This document shows, one piece after another, positions 17,106-32,518 of a DNA stretch of 32,518 nt (position 1 is its first letter; each line of letters begins with the position of its first letter). The stretch spans positions 1-32,518 of the forward strand of contig NZ_RZNH01000052.1 of assembly GCF_013141825.1 (NCBI RefSeq), in the 5' to 3' direction. The position numbers were made by a program, and so were the translations under genes. The notes under the pieces were generated by a model. That model did not search any database. It saw nothing but the letters and a program-made list of their open reading frames with translations, and was not told the DNA's origin. This stretch comes from Marinifilum caeruleilacunae. Lineage in GTDB: Bacteria; Bacteroidota; Bacteroidia; Bacteroidales; Marinifilaceae.

Positions 17106-20100
17106 TTACTTCTGCCAGCTGGCCACTGCCAGGCGCTTTTTACCATCCATTTTAATCACAAGTGGCTTTTTAAACCTAACATGTTTCACCGCTCCATATT
17201 CGGCTATTAAATCTTGTTTGCCCAACAATTCATAATCTACAAGCGAGGTTTCTGAATGATGATGAACCGAACAATAACCAATATTCATTGAGGTTACATT
17301 GTGAAAAAAGTGCGATCCCGATGAAGCTTCCAAAGGATAATCGGCAAAGCTGGTTTCAACAATTAGTTTTGCTTTAGAGATATCGTTCCATTTTACTGGA
17401 ATTCCAATCCATTTGTCCCTGGTACCCCATCGTCCCGGACCAATCAGCACATAATTCTTGTTTTGCAATCTCATTTTTTCGTTTACCGATGAGATAGTTG
17501 CAGCAATATCTGGTGTCATCTCTTTTTTAAACAATTCGGGAGCTACATAAATTACATCGCACACATTATCAACCAAACCATTTCCCATGCTCATTTCCGA
17601 AAGCAACATCAATTGCTTTTGGTTTACCTGCTCTAAATCTACATTGTAATCGTCTACATTCCCTATTAATGGTTTAATTTGCAGCAAATAAAAAGAGGCT
17701 CTGCCATTTTTATCCTTGCTCAAATCAACCGCAAATTCTATCTCGATAGGCGATCCCATTGCTTCTTTCACAATATCCAAAACCAATTCGATAGTCTTGG
17801 CCAATGGGATGTAATCGTATTTCAAGATATTGGCAAAATTTACAATTCTTGGTCCGTAGGCATCCAATCCAGGACTTATGGTATCGTTAACCGAATTGTA
17901 AACCGAAGCACAATGAGTCAGGTTTCCATGCACTTCTGCATCGTCTATTTCCAAACGGGTTAATCCGGCGGTTTCGCCTTCCAGCAAATCGATGTCTTTC
18001 TTCTTTAAATCAATGGCGTAAAATTCCACCTGCGAATTTTTGAACTGATCCTTTGGTGAATTGTTCTCAATGGTCGGAAAAACAGGTGAAAATCTACAGG
18101 CTTTTTCCCCATCAACTACATATTTCCCCAAACCAACTGCAATAACCGCATATCCTTCTTCAGGTTTCATATGACCGTAAGGATAGTAGTTGTATGATTG
18201 TGCCACGCCCGAAATATGAGGGTAAAAAGTATCTTCATAACGATTTCCCACCACTTCCTGAATCACAACCGCCATTTTTTCCTCTTCAAGTTTGTAATTC
18301 AAAGCCTGCACATTGGCACGCGATTCCTCAGAGAAAATCGAAGCATATACCAATTTAATGGCATCGGTTACTTGCTTTACACGCTGATTTAAATCGGGAT
18401 GATTGTTGGGAACAAGATAGGTTTGGAACACTCCTGCCACGGGTTGCAATAAGGAATCTTCGAACAAACCAGAGGATCGAATGGCCAAAGGTTGGTCGAA
18501 ATTCATTAGCATGACCCTGATTTTCTGCACCAGCCTAATGGTCAGGTCAGAAGCCAAAAACAGGCGCTGCACCTCTTTAAAATCGGGCAAATCTTTTGTT
18601 CTGTCCAATAGGTTATTTCTATCGATAAAGGATTCATACTCATCCACACCAATTACGGCTGTCATGGGTGCTTTAATGTTGATGTCCTTAATGTATCGGC
18701 TCAATTCAAGATTAAACAGCATGGAATTAATAAATGCCAAACCCCTTCCTTTTCCGCCCAAAGATCCTGTTGAAAGGGTAACAATATTATTCGCATTTAA
18801 TACCTGGTCGGAATTAAACTCAACCACTTTCCCCTTATTCTTCTCGTTCCGATAATTCTGAATTACATTAATCAGGTAATCCCTAACATCTTCGGCCGAT
18901 TTAAAATCTCCAATTTTGTATGGAGCAATCATCTTTGCAATACGAATTTCGCCTCGTGCCATCAACCATAGCGAAAAATGATTCTTATTAGCATGATATA
19001 CCAGCGATTCAGCAGGAATATGATAGAGGTATTCTTCAAACTCTTTTAGCGATTTTGCCGTAGCAATTTCGTTCCCATCTGCATCTTTGTATACGAAGTC
19101 ACCAAATCCGAGAAACTGGCGAATAAACAAACGAATATCGTGGCGCAAGGTTTCCGAATTCTTGTTAATGAAACTGCATTTTAGGGTAAAAGCATGGGCT
19201 GCATTGGTCACATCCGATGATTGTAAAATCACTGGCAGGTTCGGGTATTCATCTTTTATTTCCTTTACCAGCTGTATTCCGGCATCTTCTTCAAAAACAC
19301 CTTCTTTCGGGAACTTCACATCCGAAATTAAACACAACAAATACTCTTTAAACTTGTGGTAAATATTCATCGCTTCCTCGTAATTCGAGGCCAATAAAAT
19401 TTTCGGACGAGCTCTTAACCTTAATATTTTATATTGTGCATCGGTGCTTACATCATCAATAATCCTTTGGGTTTGTGCCAACACACTCTGGTAAAGCATT
19501 GGCATGTACCGCGAGTAATATTTGGCTGAATCTTCAACCAATAATATTACACGGGAAAGTCCAATCTTCGTATCATTGTCAACATTCACCTTATCTTCCA
19601 ATGATTTAATCATGGCAAAAAATACCTGCGATTCCCCATTCCATACAAACAATTTATCAACTGTTTTGTGTTCGGTTCTTTGCTCTTCGAACAGGGCAAT
19701 ATCCGCATCATTATTTAGAAGAAGGAAGATGGAAATGTAAGGAAATTCGCTTTTGATTTTTTCGCTGTATTCAATGGGTGTTTTCTTATCTACTCCAACC
19801 ATAAGAATAATCATATCGAAATGCTTACTGTGCAACTGTTCCATGGTTTCTTCCAAAGTAGAAACACCGGTAACACGAGGCATAGAAGTAAGGTTCAATT
19901 GCTGATATTCTCCTGAAATTTGTTCTGCAAATCGTCCTTCTCTCTCAATACAATAGGCATCGTATAGGTTCGCTACCAAAAGAATTTCTTTCACCTTAAA
20001 AGGCATTAAGTCATGATATATATCTCGATCGGCATTGTTCTTATTCAGGAAATTTTGAAGCAGTTTGCGATTGGTAACAGGCACGTATGGTCCTATTATC

Positions 20101-20564
20101 TCTTTTTTTTCTTCCTTTGTCTGTTGAACCTGGGTAAGAAGTTGTTTCCCGGTTTCACTATTGATATAACCAACAATGATATTGGCCAGGTTCTCAATCA
20201 AGTGTCTCTCTTCTTTCAAAAAAGGACCTTCGTCGAGGTTGGGAAATTTCTTTACGTAACAGATTTCTATTCTCCCACTTTTATTGTCAATGGTCATGAA
20301 TTCCTGGGTCATGGTCCATTGCGACAAACGAAAACCTGAGCTGAGATACTCGCTCCCATCAAAAATAATTCTGGCTACGGTAAACTCCGGATATTGCCAA
20401 GCCTTTGGCAGGATAAAGCAAATTTGTTGCAAGGTGTCCTCTATGGATCTGCCTTCCTTAATAATACCTGTAGTTTGATTAATTGCAGCAAGTTCTTTGA
20501 GTCTTTCAATATTTTCTGCAATAATTCTGTTAAGACCTTGATTATTATCTGATTCTGGGTTCAT
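17106..20564 (-). CDS. Receiver-domain/PEP-pyruvate-binding (ATP-grasp) fusion protein
   Basis: A 1152-aa soluble multi-domain protein. The N-terminus (about 1-150) looks GAF-like. Residues about 192-325 resemble a degenerate response-regulator receiver (ILLVANLYDAY, FDMIILMVGV). Residues about 338-487 form a more complete receiver: VILLVEDS (acidic pair 344-345), likely phospho-acceptor Asp415 in LISDVKFP, Ser449/Ser450 and Lys468. The stretch 597-966 is a PPDK/PEP-synthase N-terminal ATP-grasp domain: STGSLGGKGRGLAFINS (598-614), LAIRSSGLFEDS (693-704), and ...IEFAVDL with FYLLQIKP (941-965). I find no swivelling phospho-His domain and no PEP-binding TIM barrel, so it is unlikely to be a working PEP synthase. 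The last 180 residues (with GPGRWGTRDKWIGIPVKW) are not recognised. It is divergent from gdhA and its stop abuts the permease's stop. Confidence 0.78.
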   Translation of the reverse strand: MNPESDNNQGLNRIIAENIERLKELAAINQTTGIIKEGRSIEDTLQQICFILPKAWQYPEFTVARIIFDGSEYLSSGFRLSQWTMTQEFMTIDNKSGRIEICYVKKFPNLDEGPFLKEERHLIENLANIIVGYINSETGKQLLTQVQQTKEEKKEIIGPYVPVTNRKLLQNFLNKNNADRDIYHDLMPFKVKEILLVANLYDAYCIEREGRFAEQISGEYQQLNLTSMPRVTGVSTLEETMEQLHSKHFDMIILMVGVDKKTPIEYSEKIKSEFPYISIFLLLNNDADIALFEEQRTEHKTVDKLFVWNGESQVFFAMIKSLEDKVNVDNDTKIGLSRVILLVEDSAKYYSRYMPMLYQSVLAQTQRIIDDVSTDAQYKILRLRARPKILLASNYEEAMNIYHKFKEYLLCLISDVKFPKEGVFEEDAGIQLVKEIKDEYPNLPVILQSSDVTNAAHAFTLKCSFINKNSETLRHDIRLFIRQFLGFGDFVYKDADGNEIATAKSLKEFEEYLYHIPAESLVYHANKNHFSLWLMARGEIRIAKMIAPYKIGDFKSAEDVRDYLINVIQNYRNEKNKGKVVEFNSDQVLNANNIVTLSTGSLGGKGRGLAFINSMLFNLELSRYIKDINIKAPMTAVIGVDEYESFIDRNNLLDRTKDLPDFKEVQRLFLASDLTIRLVQKIRVMLMNFDQPLAIRSSGLFEDSLLQPVAGVFQTYLVPNNHPDLNQRVKQVTDAIKLVYASIFSEESRANVQALNYKLEEEKMAVVIQEVVGNRYEDTFYPHISGVAQSYNYYPYGHMKPEEGYAVIAVGLGKYVVDGEKACRFSPVFPTIENNSPKDQFKNSQVEFYAIDLKKKDIDLLEGETAGLTRLEIDDAEVHGNLTHCASVYNSVNDTISPGLDAYGPRIVNFANILKYDYIPLAKTIELVLDIVKEAMGSPIEIEFAVDLSKDKNGRASFYLLQIKPLIGNVDDYNVDLEQVNQKQLMLLSEMSMGNGLVDNVCDVIYVAPELFKKEMTPDIAATISSVNEKMRLQNKNYVLIGPGRWGTRDKWIGIPVKWNDISKAKLIVETSFADYPLEASSGSHFFHNVTSMNIGYCSVHHHSETSLVDYELLGKQDLIAEYGAVKHVRFKKPLVIKMDGKKRLAVASWQK

Positions 20565-24553: not shown

Positions 24554-26527
24554 ATGAGTACTAAAATCACACCCAAACAAAACTATGAACTCACCCGACA
24601 ACAAATTGGCTATGTAGACCGAAGGATCGCCACTCCTGAAGACTATCGTAGAATTGGATTTAAGTCGGGTTTAGAAGTTCATCAGCAACTTGCTACTAAA
24701 GAGAAGTTGTTTTGCCATTGCCCTTGCGGCGTATTTCAAAAAAACGGAGATTATGATGCCGAAGTAATTCGCCACATGCGACCTGCCATGAGTGAACTTG
24801 GTGGATACGATGGTACAGCGCTTATGGAATTCAAAACCCGTAAGAATATTATTTACCGTATCAATAACGAAACGGCCTGTACTTACGAAGTAGATGATAC
24901 TCCTCCGTTTAAAATTAATCCTGAAGCATTAGAAATTGCATTAAAAATATCCTTACTCAGCAAATTAAATGTTGTTGGTGAGGTTCATATTACACGTAAA
25001 CAATACCTCGACGGAAGTATTCCAACTGGTTTTCAGCGTACAGCAATTCTTGGCGTAAATGGGCACATTCAGCTTCGCAATAAAAAGGTGAATCTGATTC
25101 AGTTGAGTATCGAGGAAGATTCGTGCAGAGAAATTGCCGATGTAGGTCACGAAAGATGGTATAAAACCGACCGATTGGGCATGCCCTTAATTGAAACCGT
25201 TACTGCTCCCGAACTTGTTACACCTGATGAATTAAGAGAAGCGGCCGAATACATTCGATTTTTAAATAGAAGTACTGGATTGGTACGAACTGGAATGGGA
25301 GCCGGAAGAGAAGATGTAAATGTAAGTTGCCGTGGTGGTTCTCGAGTAGAAATTAAAGGAGTTGCTCACAACAAATGGATCCCTGAGCTTTCGCACAACG
25401 AAGCATTTAGGCAATGGGCCTTACTTCATATCAGAAAATTATTACTGGAAAGAATAACAAAGGAAAAGTGGCAGCCAAGACATATGGAGTTAGATCCTCA
25501 TGAGTTCAAATTCACTTACCTGCTATTGGTAGAATGCAAGGAGAAAAAGCATAAAATTATAGCCATCAACATCCCTGAATTTAAAGGATTCCTTTCTCAT
25601 TTTACGCAACCAGAACAGGTTTTTGCCGACGAAATTTCGCAAAGATTAAAAGTAATTGCCTGTATTGAAAAACCAAACATGATTCACTCCGAGCAGGAAG
25701 ATGTGCTCATTTCGGATCATGATTTTGCCACAATCCGTACTAAAATGGGTGCGAAAAATAAGGATGCACAAATCATTATATGGGGTCCTGAAGAGGACAT
25801 TGAAACAGCCATTGAAACCGTAATTGAACGTTGCGAAATGATTTTTGATGGTGTTCCGAATGAAACACGAAAATCCTTTGCCGACGGTACAACCATATTC
25901 GAAAGGGTTTTACCAGGGGCCGACCGAATGTATCCTGATACAGACTCCTGCCCGATTCCCCTGTCTGATGAATATATCGAAAGGTTAGGAAAAGATTTAC
26001 CTCAGGATATCTCCAAGAGAATCGAATTATTAAGCAAATGGGGCGTTCCCGAAGATGCCTTCCATTTTATTCTTAGTAAAAATATCTATCCAATTATTGA
26101 CGAAATCTGTAGTCGTTTCCTATTCGATCCGAAACGAGTTGCCATTTTCTTTGGCCACACCTACAAGAATATTGTGGGAAAACAAAAGGCTCATACCGAT
26201 TTCAATTACAGAAAACTGGTGGGCTTGTTCAAATTTATCCATGAGCAAGGTTTGCACATTAACATTGCAAAATACCTTCTTCCAATATTGTATCAGCATC
26301 CAAGTATGGAGTTTAATTCGATGCTTACCGCTTTAAAATTTAAGAAGAGAAGCCTGGAAGAGTTGGCCGCTCCAATCGATTTTCTTGCCGAGAAGTACCG
26401 CGATATCAGGAAAACTGATGAGCAGGATGATGCTGCTAACTGGATTATGGGGCAACTTCACAAACAAGCAATTGGAAATATTGAGTTAAGAGATTTAAGA
26501 GAAATCATCGATAAACGATTACAATAA
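24554..26527 (+). CDS. gatE: Archaeal-type Glu-tRNA(Gln) amidotransferase subunit E
   Basis: A 657-aa GatB/GatE-superfamily protein. Unlike bacterial GatB (about 475 aa) it has the GatE layout. The kinase/transamidase cradle (about 35-300) has GLEVHQQL (39-46), LFCHCPC with Cys54, Cys56 and Cys58, RKQYLDGSIPTGFQRT (148-163), IEEDSC (186-191), DRLGMPLIE and EDVNVS (253-258), and VEIKGV. An insertion at about 305-430 corresponds to the AspRS-like GAD domain. Then come VPNETR (434-439) and LPGADRMYPDTD (453-464), which in archaeal GatE reads close to PGxARMYPETD, and a helical tail ending in a YqeY-like domain (about 490-657). The family phosphorylates and amidates Glu on tRNA(Gln). The stop overlaps the gatD start by one base. 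The start at 24554 fits the N-terminus. Confidence 0.93.
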   Translation: MSTKITPKQNYELTRQQIGYVDRRIATPEDYRRIGFKSGLEVHQQLATKEKLFCHCPCGVFQKNGDYDAEVIRHMRPAMSELGGYDGTALMEFKTRKNIIYRINNETACTYEVDDTPPFKINPEALEIALKISLLSKLNVVGEVHITRKQYLDGSIPTGFQRTAILGVNGHIQLRNKKVNLIQLSIEEDSCREIADVGHERWYKTDRLGMPLIETVTAPELVTPDELREAAEYIRFLNRSTGLVRTGMGAGREDVNVSCRGGSRVEIKGVAHNKWIPELSHNEAFRQWALLHIRKLLLERITKEKWQPRHMELDPHEFKFTYLLLVECKEKKHKIIAINIPEFKGFLSHFTQPEQVFADEISQRLKVIACIEKPNMIHSEQEDVLISDHDFATIRTKMGAKNKDAQIIIWGPEEDIETAIETVIERCEMIFDGVPNETRKSFADGTTIFERVLPGADRMYPDTDSCPIPLSDEYIERLGKDLPQDISKRIELLSKWGVPEDAFHFILSKNIYPIIDEICSRFLFDPKRVAIFFGHTYKNIVGKQKAHTDFNYRKLVGLFKFIHEQGLHINIAKYLLPILYQHPSMEFNSMLTALKFKKRSLEELAAPIDFLAEKYRDIRKTDEQDDAANWIMGQLHKQAIGNIELRDLREIIDKRLQ

Positions 26528-27909
26528 TGGAAGATCTTTTTCAAGGATATAAGGGTGATGCTCTGGAAACCCTCAAAAAATATAATGTTCGTGTATGGGG
26601 AAAAACTCATATCGTAACCACCAGAGGAGAATTTGACGGAACCATTCTTCCGCGTGCAGAAAATGATGACGATCAGCATATCGTATTAAAAATAGATACA
26701 GGTTACAACATCGGTATAAATGTAAGCACCATTAAGGAAATGAAGGAAACTGGCTACAAAAAAGCCAATTACAAAGTTCCCGAAAAAGAGTTTCCTTATA
26801 CCGAAGGCCAACCAAAAGTAAAATTGTTTGGTACCGGGGGAACCATAGCTTCTCGATTGGATTATCGAACGGGTGCTGTTATTCCTGCATTTTCACCTGG
26901 TGAGTTGTATGGATCGGTTCCTGAACTGGCCGACATCTGTAATCTGACTACCGAGAAAGTTTTTGCTGTTTTTAGTGAAAATATGGGGCCACAACAATAC
27001 ATTTCATTGGCCATTGCCATTGGTAAAGAAATAGAGAATGGCGTGGATGGAATTATCATTGCGCACGGTACCGATACCTTGCACCATACAGCAGCAGCAC
27101 TTACCTATATGGTTCAGAATTTGCCTGTTCCGGTTGTTTTGGTAGGTTCGCAACGATCATCAGACCGACCATCATCCGATGCTGCCCTGAACCTGATGCA
27201 TTCGGCAATTGCCGCAGGTCATGGCGATATTGCAGAAGTAATGGTATGTATGTTTGGTCCTACCTCCGATGAATATGGATTCCTACATAGAGGAACAAGA
27301 GTACGTAAAATGCATTCGAGCTACCGTTCCACTTTTAGAACTTTGGGAGACACACCACTGGCAACAGTTACCAGGAAAGGAGTGGAAGCCATCAAGAAAA
27401 AGTACAATCATCGCCGCAAGGACAAGGATGTAAAAATATTACCTTATTTCGAGGAAAAAGTAACGATTTTGTACTACTATCCGAACATGCAACCCGATGT
27501 GGTTGATGCCTTGGTTGATTGTGGCTACAAAGGAATTATAATTGCAGGAACCGGACTCGGACACGTGAACAAACCTGTGTATCCGGCTTTAAAAAGAGCA
27601 GTAGAAAAGGGAGTTCATATTTTCATGACTGTTCAAACCCTTTGGGGATATACGCACATGTTTGTGTATGATACCGGTAGAGATTTAATGGCCATGGGTG
27701 TGGTTCCTTTAGACAATATGCTACCCGAAGCAGCTTACATTAAATTGGGTTGGGCATTGGGTCAAACCACCAATAGAAATGAGGTGATCGATTTGATGCA
27801 AACGTCAATTAATGATGAAATCACAAAACGAGAACCATATAATGGATACCTGCTTTACCAGGGAGGTGTGCCCGAAGTAGAGCAGTTTGTTAAGAATTTT
27901 AGAAAGTAA
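26527..27909 (+). CDS. gatD: Archaeal-type Glu-tRNA(Gln) amidotransferase subunit D
   Basis: A 460-aa asparaginase-family protein that would release ammonia from Gln or Asn for GatE. The N-terminal SH3/Tudor-like domain (about 20-70; VRVWGKTHIVTTRGEFDGTI and KIDTGYNIGI), absent from plain asparaginases, is the diagnostic GatD feature. The asparaginase core has FGTGGTIASR (101-110, Thr103 as nucleophile), AHGTDT (179-184; Thr182, Asp183) and RKMHSS with Lys261, which match the Thr/Thr/Asp/Lys quartet known for archaeal GatD. The ATG overlaps the gatE stop (TAATG), so the two are translationally coupled. Downstream is a terminator. Plain L-asparaginase is the main alternative, but the extra domain and coupling to gatE make it unlikely. 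Confidence 0.95.
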   Translation: MEDLFQGYKGDALETLKKYNVRVWGKTHIVTTRGEFDGTILPRAENDDDQHIVLKIDTGYNIGINVSTIKEMKETGYKKANYKVPEKEFPYTEGQPKVKLFGTGGTIASRLDYRTGAVIPAFSPGELYGSVPELADICNLTTEKVFAVFSENMGPQQYISLAIAIGKEIENGVDGIIIAHGTDTLHHTAAALTYMVQNLPVPVVLVGSQRSSDRPSSDAALNLMHSAIAAGHGDIAEVMVCMFGPTSDEYGFLHRGTRVRKMHSSYRSTFRTLGDTPLATVTRKGVEAIKKKYNHRRKDKDVKILPYFEEKVTILYYYPNMQPDVVDALVDCGYKGIIIAGTGLGHVNKPVYPALKRAVEKGVHIFMTVQTLWGYTHMFVYDTGRDLMAMGVVPLDNMLPEAAYIKLGWALGQTTNRNEVIDLMQTSINDEITKREPYNGYLLYQGGVPEVEQFVKNFRK

Positions 27910-27915
27910 CCTAAG

Positions 27916-27938
27916 CCCGGCCATTTGCCGGGTTTTTT
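27916..27938 (+). terminator. Terminator of gatE-gatD
   Basis: CCCGGC/GCCGGG, a 6-bp GC-rich stem with loop CATTT, is followed by six T. It begins seven bases after the gatD stop. Confidence 0.85.
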
Positions 27939-28000: not shown

Positions 28001-28024
28001 AAGTAAGATTTGAAAAAGGATGAT

Positions 28025-28684
28025 ATGAGTTTATTAGATACTACTTTTGATTTAGAAGTGTTCAAGGCGCAATTGAACGAAGAGCTTAATAAAGGTCTTC
28101 CGGGTTTCGATGCACAAAAAATAATGTCGCCATCAATTCGCGAACATGCTCTTAAAAAAAGTGATCCATCCCTGGCCAGAGACAGTAGTGTATTGTTACT
28201 TTTCTATCCAAAAAACGGCCAGTTGTACCTTCCTTTTATGAAAAGAACCACGGGAAACACAAGTCACAGTGGACAAATTAGTTTGCCAGGTGGTAAATAC
28301 GAAGAGAGCGATACCAATCGAACGGTAACTGCCATTCGCGAAACCAACGAGGAGCTGGGTGTAGATTGTAAAAAGATTAAAATTCTGGGATTCTTAACCG
28401 AATTGTACATTCCGGTGAGCAATTTTATGGTTCTTCCTGTTTTGGGATATTGCAAGCAGCGTCCCGAATTTAAATTGAATCCACACGAAGTTGAAGAGGT
28501 GATTGAAATGCCTGTACAGGAACTTCTTGCCGAAAAGAATATCTCGGAATTTAGTTTTAACACAAACGGACATAAAATAAACGCCCCATACTTCGATGCC
28601 AAAGGCCACAAGGTATGGGGAGCTACTGCAATGATTTTATCTGAACTTCGTGAGTTGTTTTTACGAGCTGGCCTGATCCGTTAA
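28025..28684 (+). CDS. Nudix hydrolase, CoA pyrophosphatase-like (NudL type)
   Basis: A 219-aa Nudix enzyme. The start is set at ATG 28025; a TTG at 28010 would add only MKKDD. The CoA-pyrophosphatase pre-motif LPFMKRTTGNTSHSGQISLP is followed by the Nudix box GGKYEESDTNRTVTAIRETN with EELG (residues 89-112). The box keeps RE..EELG (105-112) and carries Asp96 where many Nudix enzymes have Glu, as I recall for NudL, which also has Asp at that point. Such enzymes split CoA into 3',5'-ADP and phosphopantetheine. The gene follows gatD and its terminator and is convergent with the transglycosylase, whose 3' end it overlaps by 24 bases on the opposite strand. The role in CoA turnover is inferred from the family. 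Confidence 0.85.
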   Translation: MSLLDTTFDLEVFKAQLNEELNKGLPGFDAQKIMSPSIREHALKKSDPSLARDSSVLLLFYPKNGQLYLPFMKRTTGNTSHSGQISLPGGKYEESDTNRTVTAIRETNEELGVDCKKIKILGFLTELYIPVSNFMVLPVLGYCKQRPEFKLNPHEVEEVIEMPVQELLAEKNISEFSFNTNGHKINAPYFDAKGHKVWGATAMILSELRELFLRAGLIR

Positions 28685-32368: not shown

Positions 32369-32478
<110 letters not shown>

Positions 32479-32518
32479 AAATCGTTGTTGACTATCTAGT
32501 CAAACTAATATCATAGAC

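Follow-up and report, generated by a model that had tools for sequence, protein, structure and literature searches.

A GatDE-type amidotransferase gene pair coexisting with GlnRS in Marinifilum caeruleilacunae and other Bacteroidales

In this study, the gatE-gatD gene pair (gatED), which encodes a GatDE-type Glu-tRNA(Gln) amidotransferase, was investigated in a stretch of 32,518 nucleotides of Marinifilum caeruleilacunae DNA (assembly GCF_013141825.1, contig NZ_RZNH01000052.1, positions 1 to 32,518), hereafter called the window, whose source organism is a Marinifilum-like member of Bacteroidales. As the first-pass annotation of this DNA had described, both subunits are encoded (657 and 460 amino acids), and the stop codon of gatE and the ATG of gatD overlap by one base (TAATG). 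The pair and its parts are located as follows.

24554..26527, + strand: gatE, Glu-tRNA(Gln) amidotransferase subunit E, 657 amino acids (NF003107 and TIGR00134 above cut-off, structure matches, tree)
24554..24640, + strand: N-terminal extension of GatE, residues 1-29 (the alignment with 2d6f and 1zq1 begins only at residue 30)
25460..25852, + strand: AspRS-like (GAD-type) insertion of GatE, residues 303-433
26009..26524, + strand: C-terminal part of GatE, all-helical in the predicted model, with a YqeY-like tail, residues 486-657
26527..27909, + strand: gatD, glutaminase/asparaginase-type subunit D, 460 amino acids
26614..26733, + strand: N-terminal (SH3-like) domain of GatD, residues 30-69 (PF18195, 46.7 bits against a cut-off of 25.7)
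26815..27798, + strand: asparaginase-type catalytic domains of GatD, residues 97-291 and 311-424 (PF00710, PF17763)

The GAD-type insertion of GatE and the SH3-like N-terminal domain of GatD, both read from the letters at first pass, were confirmed, together with the GatD quartet T103, T182, D183 and K261, which lies entirely within the asparaginase-type domains and was invariant in 55 of 55 sequences; we take these four to be the catalytic residues of GatD. In the N-terminal extension of GatE one helix is predicted at residues 7-18, and PF02637 scored 25.3 bits on the tail, slightly below its cut-off of 27.

By its sequence, the pair is a genuine GatDE. GatE exceeded the NCBI equivalog cut-offs for archaeal GatE (461.6 against 456 and 403.2 against 319.55 bits), GatD exceeded that for archaeal GatD and carries the GatD_N domain, and the nearest solved structures of both subunits are the archaeal GatDE complexes 2d6f (Methanothermobacter thermautotrophicus) and 1zq1 (Pyrococcus abyssi), which represent the closest known system. 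The bacterial GatCAB carries out the same type of reaction; its ammonia-making subunit is the amidase-type GatA, whereas GatD is asparaginase-type. GatB is homologous to GatE, yet the tree parted the 67 GatE rows from the 12 GatB rows with a Shimodaira-Hasegawa-like approximate likelihood ratio test (SH-aLRT) support of 100. With type I L-asparaginase GatD has the catalytic fold in common, but it possesses the GatD_N domain, passes the GatD cut-offs and adjoins gatE. A misannotated GatB or asparaginase was thus rejected on the equivalog cut-offs and the tree split, and the first-pass assignment to the GatDE family held: neither a placement inside bacterial GatB or asparaginase nor a complete GatCAB was encountered, as the tree is split and the genome search turned up no GatB. 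A second GatD-like asparaginase-type gene was noticed elsewhere in the genome (L002, G000:C126:38922-39977), scoring 231 of 324 bits, below the GatD cut-off.

Compared with the archaeal GatDE, the window pair has a bacterial host that also encodes GlnRS, and its GatE bears about 29 additional N-terminal residues. Across 64 bacterial GatEs, 106 columns were invariant, of which 72 were identical in two archaeal GatEs, while 24 columns invariant in the bacteria differed from both archaeal chains, five of them within residues 193-216. Since these GatE columns and the GatD quartet are conserved although some of the compared bacterial GatEs are only 34% identical to that of the window, selection has maintained an amidotransferase. 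Among close relatives GatD is much more conserved than GatE, for instance 93% against 78% in Labilibaculum (L018-L028).

The descent of GatE was examined with a quick tree supported by SH-aLRT only, comprising the window GatE, 63 of 122 relatives, 12 of 33 GatBs and three archaeal rows, namely the sequences of the two structures and one frameshifted Natrinema copy on a long branch. The archaeal GatEs formed one group (99) and the bacterial GatEs another (87); with three archaeal sequences and this support, the old transfer from Archaea suggested at first pass is no more than a possibility. The GatEs of Bacteroidales and Neomarinimicrobiota clustered together (100), on a long stem. Six Neomarinimicrobiota rows were nested in Bacteroidales (L034, L036, L038, L043, L063, and L050, which we assigned to Neomarinimicrobiota), and this nesting points to transfer from Bacteroidales, so that the Neomarinimicrobiota GatE was apparently acquired from that order. 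Long branches that meet were flagged in this tree (the archaeal rows together with GatB, a single GatB row, and the row of Natrinema), as was an unusual composition of nine rows, which makes its deep branching order unsure.

With respect to distribution, samples of 295 genomes of the order and 296 genomes of the phylum were searched. GatE was present in 127 of the 295 order genomes, a count made up of 124 genomes with a GatE-type PF02934 match (130 matches minus six that were GatB only) and three with incomplete pieces (G233, G263, G287); under the strict NF003107 cut-off it was present in 101. In the three further genomes sampled from the family of the window, GatE was not found. At the phylum level, a TIGR00134 match at E<=1e-30 was obtained in 22 of 296 genomes, namely the window's own and 21 from other classes, none of these 21 being labelled with the same class or order, and GatE was also present in Neomarinimicrobiota. 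GatDE is not a rarity in Bacteroidota. No relative was confirmed on viral contigs in a search with two short peptide patterns, and no plasmid match covered 80% of GatE. The Natrinema thermotolerans plasmid CP031304 (L204) holds an archaeal GatE that lacks an annotation and whose reading frame seems to shift partway along.

The window genome encodes a complete GlnRS with all three Pfam domains (the catalytic and both anticodon-binding ones), in contrast to the archaeal hosts of GatDE, which habitually have no GlnRS. GluRS, AsnRS and AspRS are complete as well, and a LysRS, named by eye from its sequence, is present. GatB, which alone was searched and stands in for GatCAB throughout this study, was not found in the window genome, where the PF02934 matches fell on GatE only. 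The genome check for glnS, gatB and gltX proposed at first pass thus returned GlnRS and GluRS and no GatB; replacement of GlnRS by GatDE was rejected for this genome, and the unusual bacterial route to Gln-tRNA that had been suggested is not needed here.

Throughout the order, GlnRS was counted as present when the best TIGR00440 E-value was <1e-50 (272 genomes) and otherwise as absent (23); the family cut-off gives 266. GatE and GlnRS were uncorrelated, as GlnRS occurred in 115 of 127 GatE-positive and 157 of 168 GatE-negative genomes (p 0.39), while GlnRS was missing in seven of 14 GatB-positive genomes against 16 of the 281 others. Nine GatE-positive genomes had neither detected GlnRS nor GatB (G034, G075, G141, G180, G233, G246, G250, G253, G287), and draft gaps are the favoured explanation, because for each of them a GlnRS-positive genome with the same family code is in the sample. 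G075 is given as 99% complete, and its genus mates G179 and G271 have GlnRS; a gap is probable there as well, and a life on GatDE alone is unlikely. Convincing reliance on GatDE alone was seen in no surveyed genome. In the phylum sample, 20 of the 22 GatE-positive genomes had two class Ic synthetases, G543 had a fragment only, and G579 had one of GluRS size only.

The family of G579 (f151, 54 genomes) was then surveyed for GlnRS and GatB. Here GlnRS was scored as a PF00749 match in a frame of at least 559 amino acids, and G611, G616 and G637, whose pieces are broken or lie at an edge, were classed as GlnRS-minus. GlnRS was found in 30 of the 54 genomes, none of them with GatB, and GatB in 20, none of them with a recognisable GlnRS; G579 itself has GatB, and the GatB-positive G611 and G616 have broken GlnRS pieces only. 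Four genomes had neither, namely G607, G617 and G633 (72-84% complete) and G637, in which a class Ic piece is cut at the contig edge. Both states occurred within one genus, g330. The best topology of a GluRS tree needed four changes of the GlnRS-minus label, and its supported branches alone demanded at least two, so GlnRS and GatB have swapped places more than once. GatE accompanied 26 of the 30 GlnRS-positive and 10 of the 20 GatB-positive genomes; GatDE was never the sole clear solution, and there is a weak tendency for genomes with GatB to lack it more often, as would be expected if GatCAB can take over the substrate of GatDE.

The identity marks of tRNA-Gln, another check put forward at first pass, were also inspected. 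The two tRNA-Gln(UUG) genes found in the window genome are identical and carry U1-A72 and A73, and its tRNA-Asn likewise has U1-A72. In G050, which has GatE, GatB and GlnRS, a tRNA-Gln(CUG) with U1-A72 and G73 stands beside glnS. As far as the parts of the source at hand go, bacterial amidotransferases depend on the U1-A72 pair (PMC9976931).

Regarding the surroundings of the pair, a probable terminator stands between gatD and the next gene in the window.

27913..27938, + strand: probable intrinsic terminator of gatED, a 9-bp stem followed by a U run, before the NUDIX gene
28010-28684: NUDIX hydrolase gene downstream of gatED

The terminator candidate folds at -14.8 kcal/mol (z -3.0) and is absent from the consensus terminator scan list. 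The GC content at third codon positions of gatE and gatD is 0.36, which falls inside or close to the span of values seen in three neighbour genes (0.29-0.36), so the window shows no sign of a recent import. The loci of relatives were compared on the best 80 of at least 526 confirmed stretches, 70 named as Bacteroidota groups, nine as Neomarinimicrobiota (L034, L036, L037, L038, L040, L041, L043, L044, L063) and one (L050) bearing no label but "bacterium". Of the named relatives among the matches listed, Marinifilum breve, M. flexuosum and others stand closest, with GatE identities of 92-95%, and the gene order from gdhA through a porin gene is identical in the Marinifilum and Labilibaculum loci. 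Contamination of the assembly was rejected, as Marinifilum isolates have the same locus in the same gene order. gatD lies directly downstream of gatE in 72 of the 80 loci (71 by script, plus L082, which falls outside the script's distance rule and was seen on inspection), and in four loci without gatD only a short remainder follows gatE (<0.8 kb in L060, L081 and L089; 1.9 kb in L062). The neighbours of gatED vary, the most frequent clusters being a NUDIX hydrolase gene after the pair (26 of 80, in several about 6-11 nt past gatD) and an MltF-like transglycosylase gene on the opposite strand (25 of 80). Elsewhere in the window, a 5S rRNA gene lies at 32369-32479 on the - strand near the contig end, and 17106-20564 encodes a protein of 1152 amino acids whose ATP-binding domain is of the pyruvate phosphate dikinase type and which also matches, more weakly, response-regulator and DUF5752 models.

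In archaeal GatDE, ammonia released by GatD passes to GatE. In the bacterial pair, GatD would hydrolyse Gln (or Asn) to ammonia, and GatE would receive this ammonia, activate with ATP the Glu on mischarged Glu-tRNA(Gln) and amidate it to Gln-tRNA(Gln). GluRS would produce the mischarged substrate by mistake or because its specificity is relaxed, GatDE would make the correct product, and misreading of Gln as Glu would be prevented; GatDE would in addition serve as a further, dispensable supply of Gln-tRNA(Gln) whenever Gln or GlnRS runs short. The data show to which family the pair belongs, that its catalytic residues are intact, how its genes are ordered and distributed, and that it co-occurs with GlnRS; we infer the enzymatic activity, the tRNA substrate and the physiological role of bacterial GatDE, as well as the mischarging by GluRS. 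Given that GlnRS is present, the rescue of Glu-tRNA(Gln) or a standby route is judged most likely, and it is reasonably probable that the pair is a working Glu-tRNA(Gln) amidotransferase acting beside GlnRS as backup or error correction. We propose more tentatively, as plausible though short of probable, a proofreading by completion, in which Bacteroidota would have long kept GatDE to rescue the Glu-tRNA(Gln) made by GluRS and not to supply Gln-tRNA(Gln). Several observations weigh against an amidotransferase at work beside GlnRS. Archaeal GatDE is reported, in the available part of a review, to contact A1:U72 and the D-loop (PMC9499178), while tRNA-Gln of the window genome has U1-A72; if tRNA-Gln is the substrate, its recognition must therefore depart from the archaeal mode. 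The 157 GatE-negative order genomes with GlnRS (of 168) manage without GatDE, and four of the 80 loci (L035, L064, L079, L080) have at least 4 kb after gatE without gatD. The association of GatE with the absence of GatB in f151 gave a Fisher p of 0.016, uncorrected for descent, and only two independent pairs, too few for a phylogeny-corrected test of GatE versus GatB, lay on well-supported branches, where they showed no signal. The window GluRS also keeps Arg at the position of Thermus thermophilus residue 358, a mark of the discriminating type. Arg occurred there in 58 of 58 aligned sequences, including 20 of 20 from f151 genomes without detected GlnRS, which makes the mark uninformative here, and residue 358 was dropped as a sign of relaxed specificity.

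A true second route, in which much of the Gln-tRNA(Gln) comes from a non-discriminating GluRS together with GatDE, in parallel to GlnRS and perhaps under glutamine shortage, is considered unlikely. Several f151 lineages without GlnRS must charge tRNA-Gln with a single GluRS, which implies that relaxed GluRSs exist in the phylum, the U1-A72 of tRNA-Gln in the window genome and G050 would suit such a route, and Bdellovibrio, in the portion of the source seen, offers a parallel by keeping GatCAB beside AsnRS (PMC4206432). Nevertheless, among the 24 f151 genomes without detected GlnRS, 20 have GatB and four are incomplete or cut, none being clearly GatDE-only, and a 2014 survey, in the text found, reads GlnRS without GatCAB (12 of 14 Bacteroidetes) as a discriminating GluRS (PMC3927822). 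A repurposed enzyme, with another acceptor such as Asp-tRNA(Asn), a tRNA-linked or free substrate, or a pathway outside translation, seems rather improbable: with GlnRS and AsnRS both present neither charging function is needed, and the 24 bacteria-specific GatE columns (five in residues 193-216), the U1-A72 of tRNA-Asn and the NUDIX gene in 26 of 80 loci could fit it, but the catalytic and tail parts are conserved, the equivalog cut-offs are passed and the varied neighbours suggest no pathway. Asp-tRNA(Asn) as a needed substrate is less likely, since AsnRS is present. That the pair is an evolutionary relic of early arrival and ongoing loss, with little present function, would agree with its patchiness in the order and, as regards the family of the window, its absence from the three further genomes sampled in that family and the lack of correlation with GlnRS; it is nonetheless very improbable in view of the 106 columns invariant over 64 divergent GatEs, the intact pair in 72 of 80 loci and the gene order kept across Marinifilum and Labilibaculum.

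With reference to the literature, reviews of 2021 and 2022, in the parts available, confine GatDE to archaea (PMC8007984, PMC9499178), and the latter links an archaea-only GatDE to the last universal common ancestor and the missing archaeal GlnRS (PMC9499178). The portion found of the 2014 survey contains no mention of GatDE (PMC3927822), and no report of bacterial GatDE was found by title or abstract opening for Bacteroidota, Marinimicrobia or horizontal transfer, subscription literature being thinly covered. It may well be that gene databases list these proteins as GatD and GatE already. In Bdellovibrio, GatCAB coexists with both GlnRS and AsnRS, and a bacterium with both routes to Gln-tRNA(Gln) was called an unknown combination in 2014, according to the accessible text (PMC4206432). 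A bacterial GatDE clade beside GlnRS would undo the archaea-only statement as it stands in the review text available, and would make the link drawn there to the last universal common ancestor and the missing GlnRS testable in cultured Marinifilum strains (PMC9499178). The reasoning, in the survey text found, that a GluRS is discriminating where GlnRS is present and GatCAB absent would likewise become unsettled for Bacteroidota (PMC3927822). Many Bacteroidota with an intact GatDE plus GlnRS may have two routes to one product, and, if the proofreading proposal is true, they would be the first bacteria known with both routes to Gln-tRNA(Gln).

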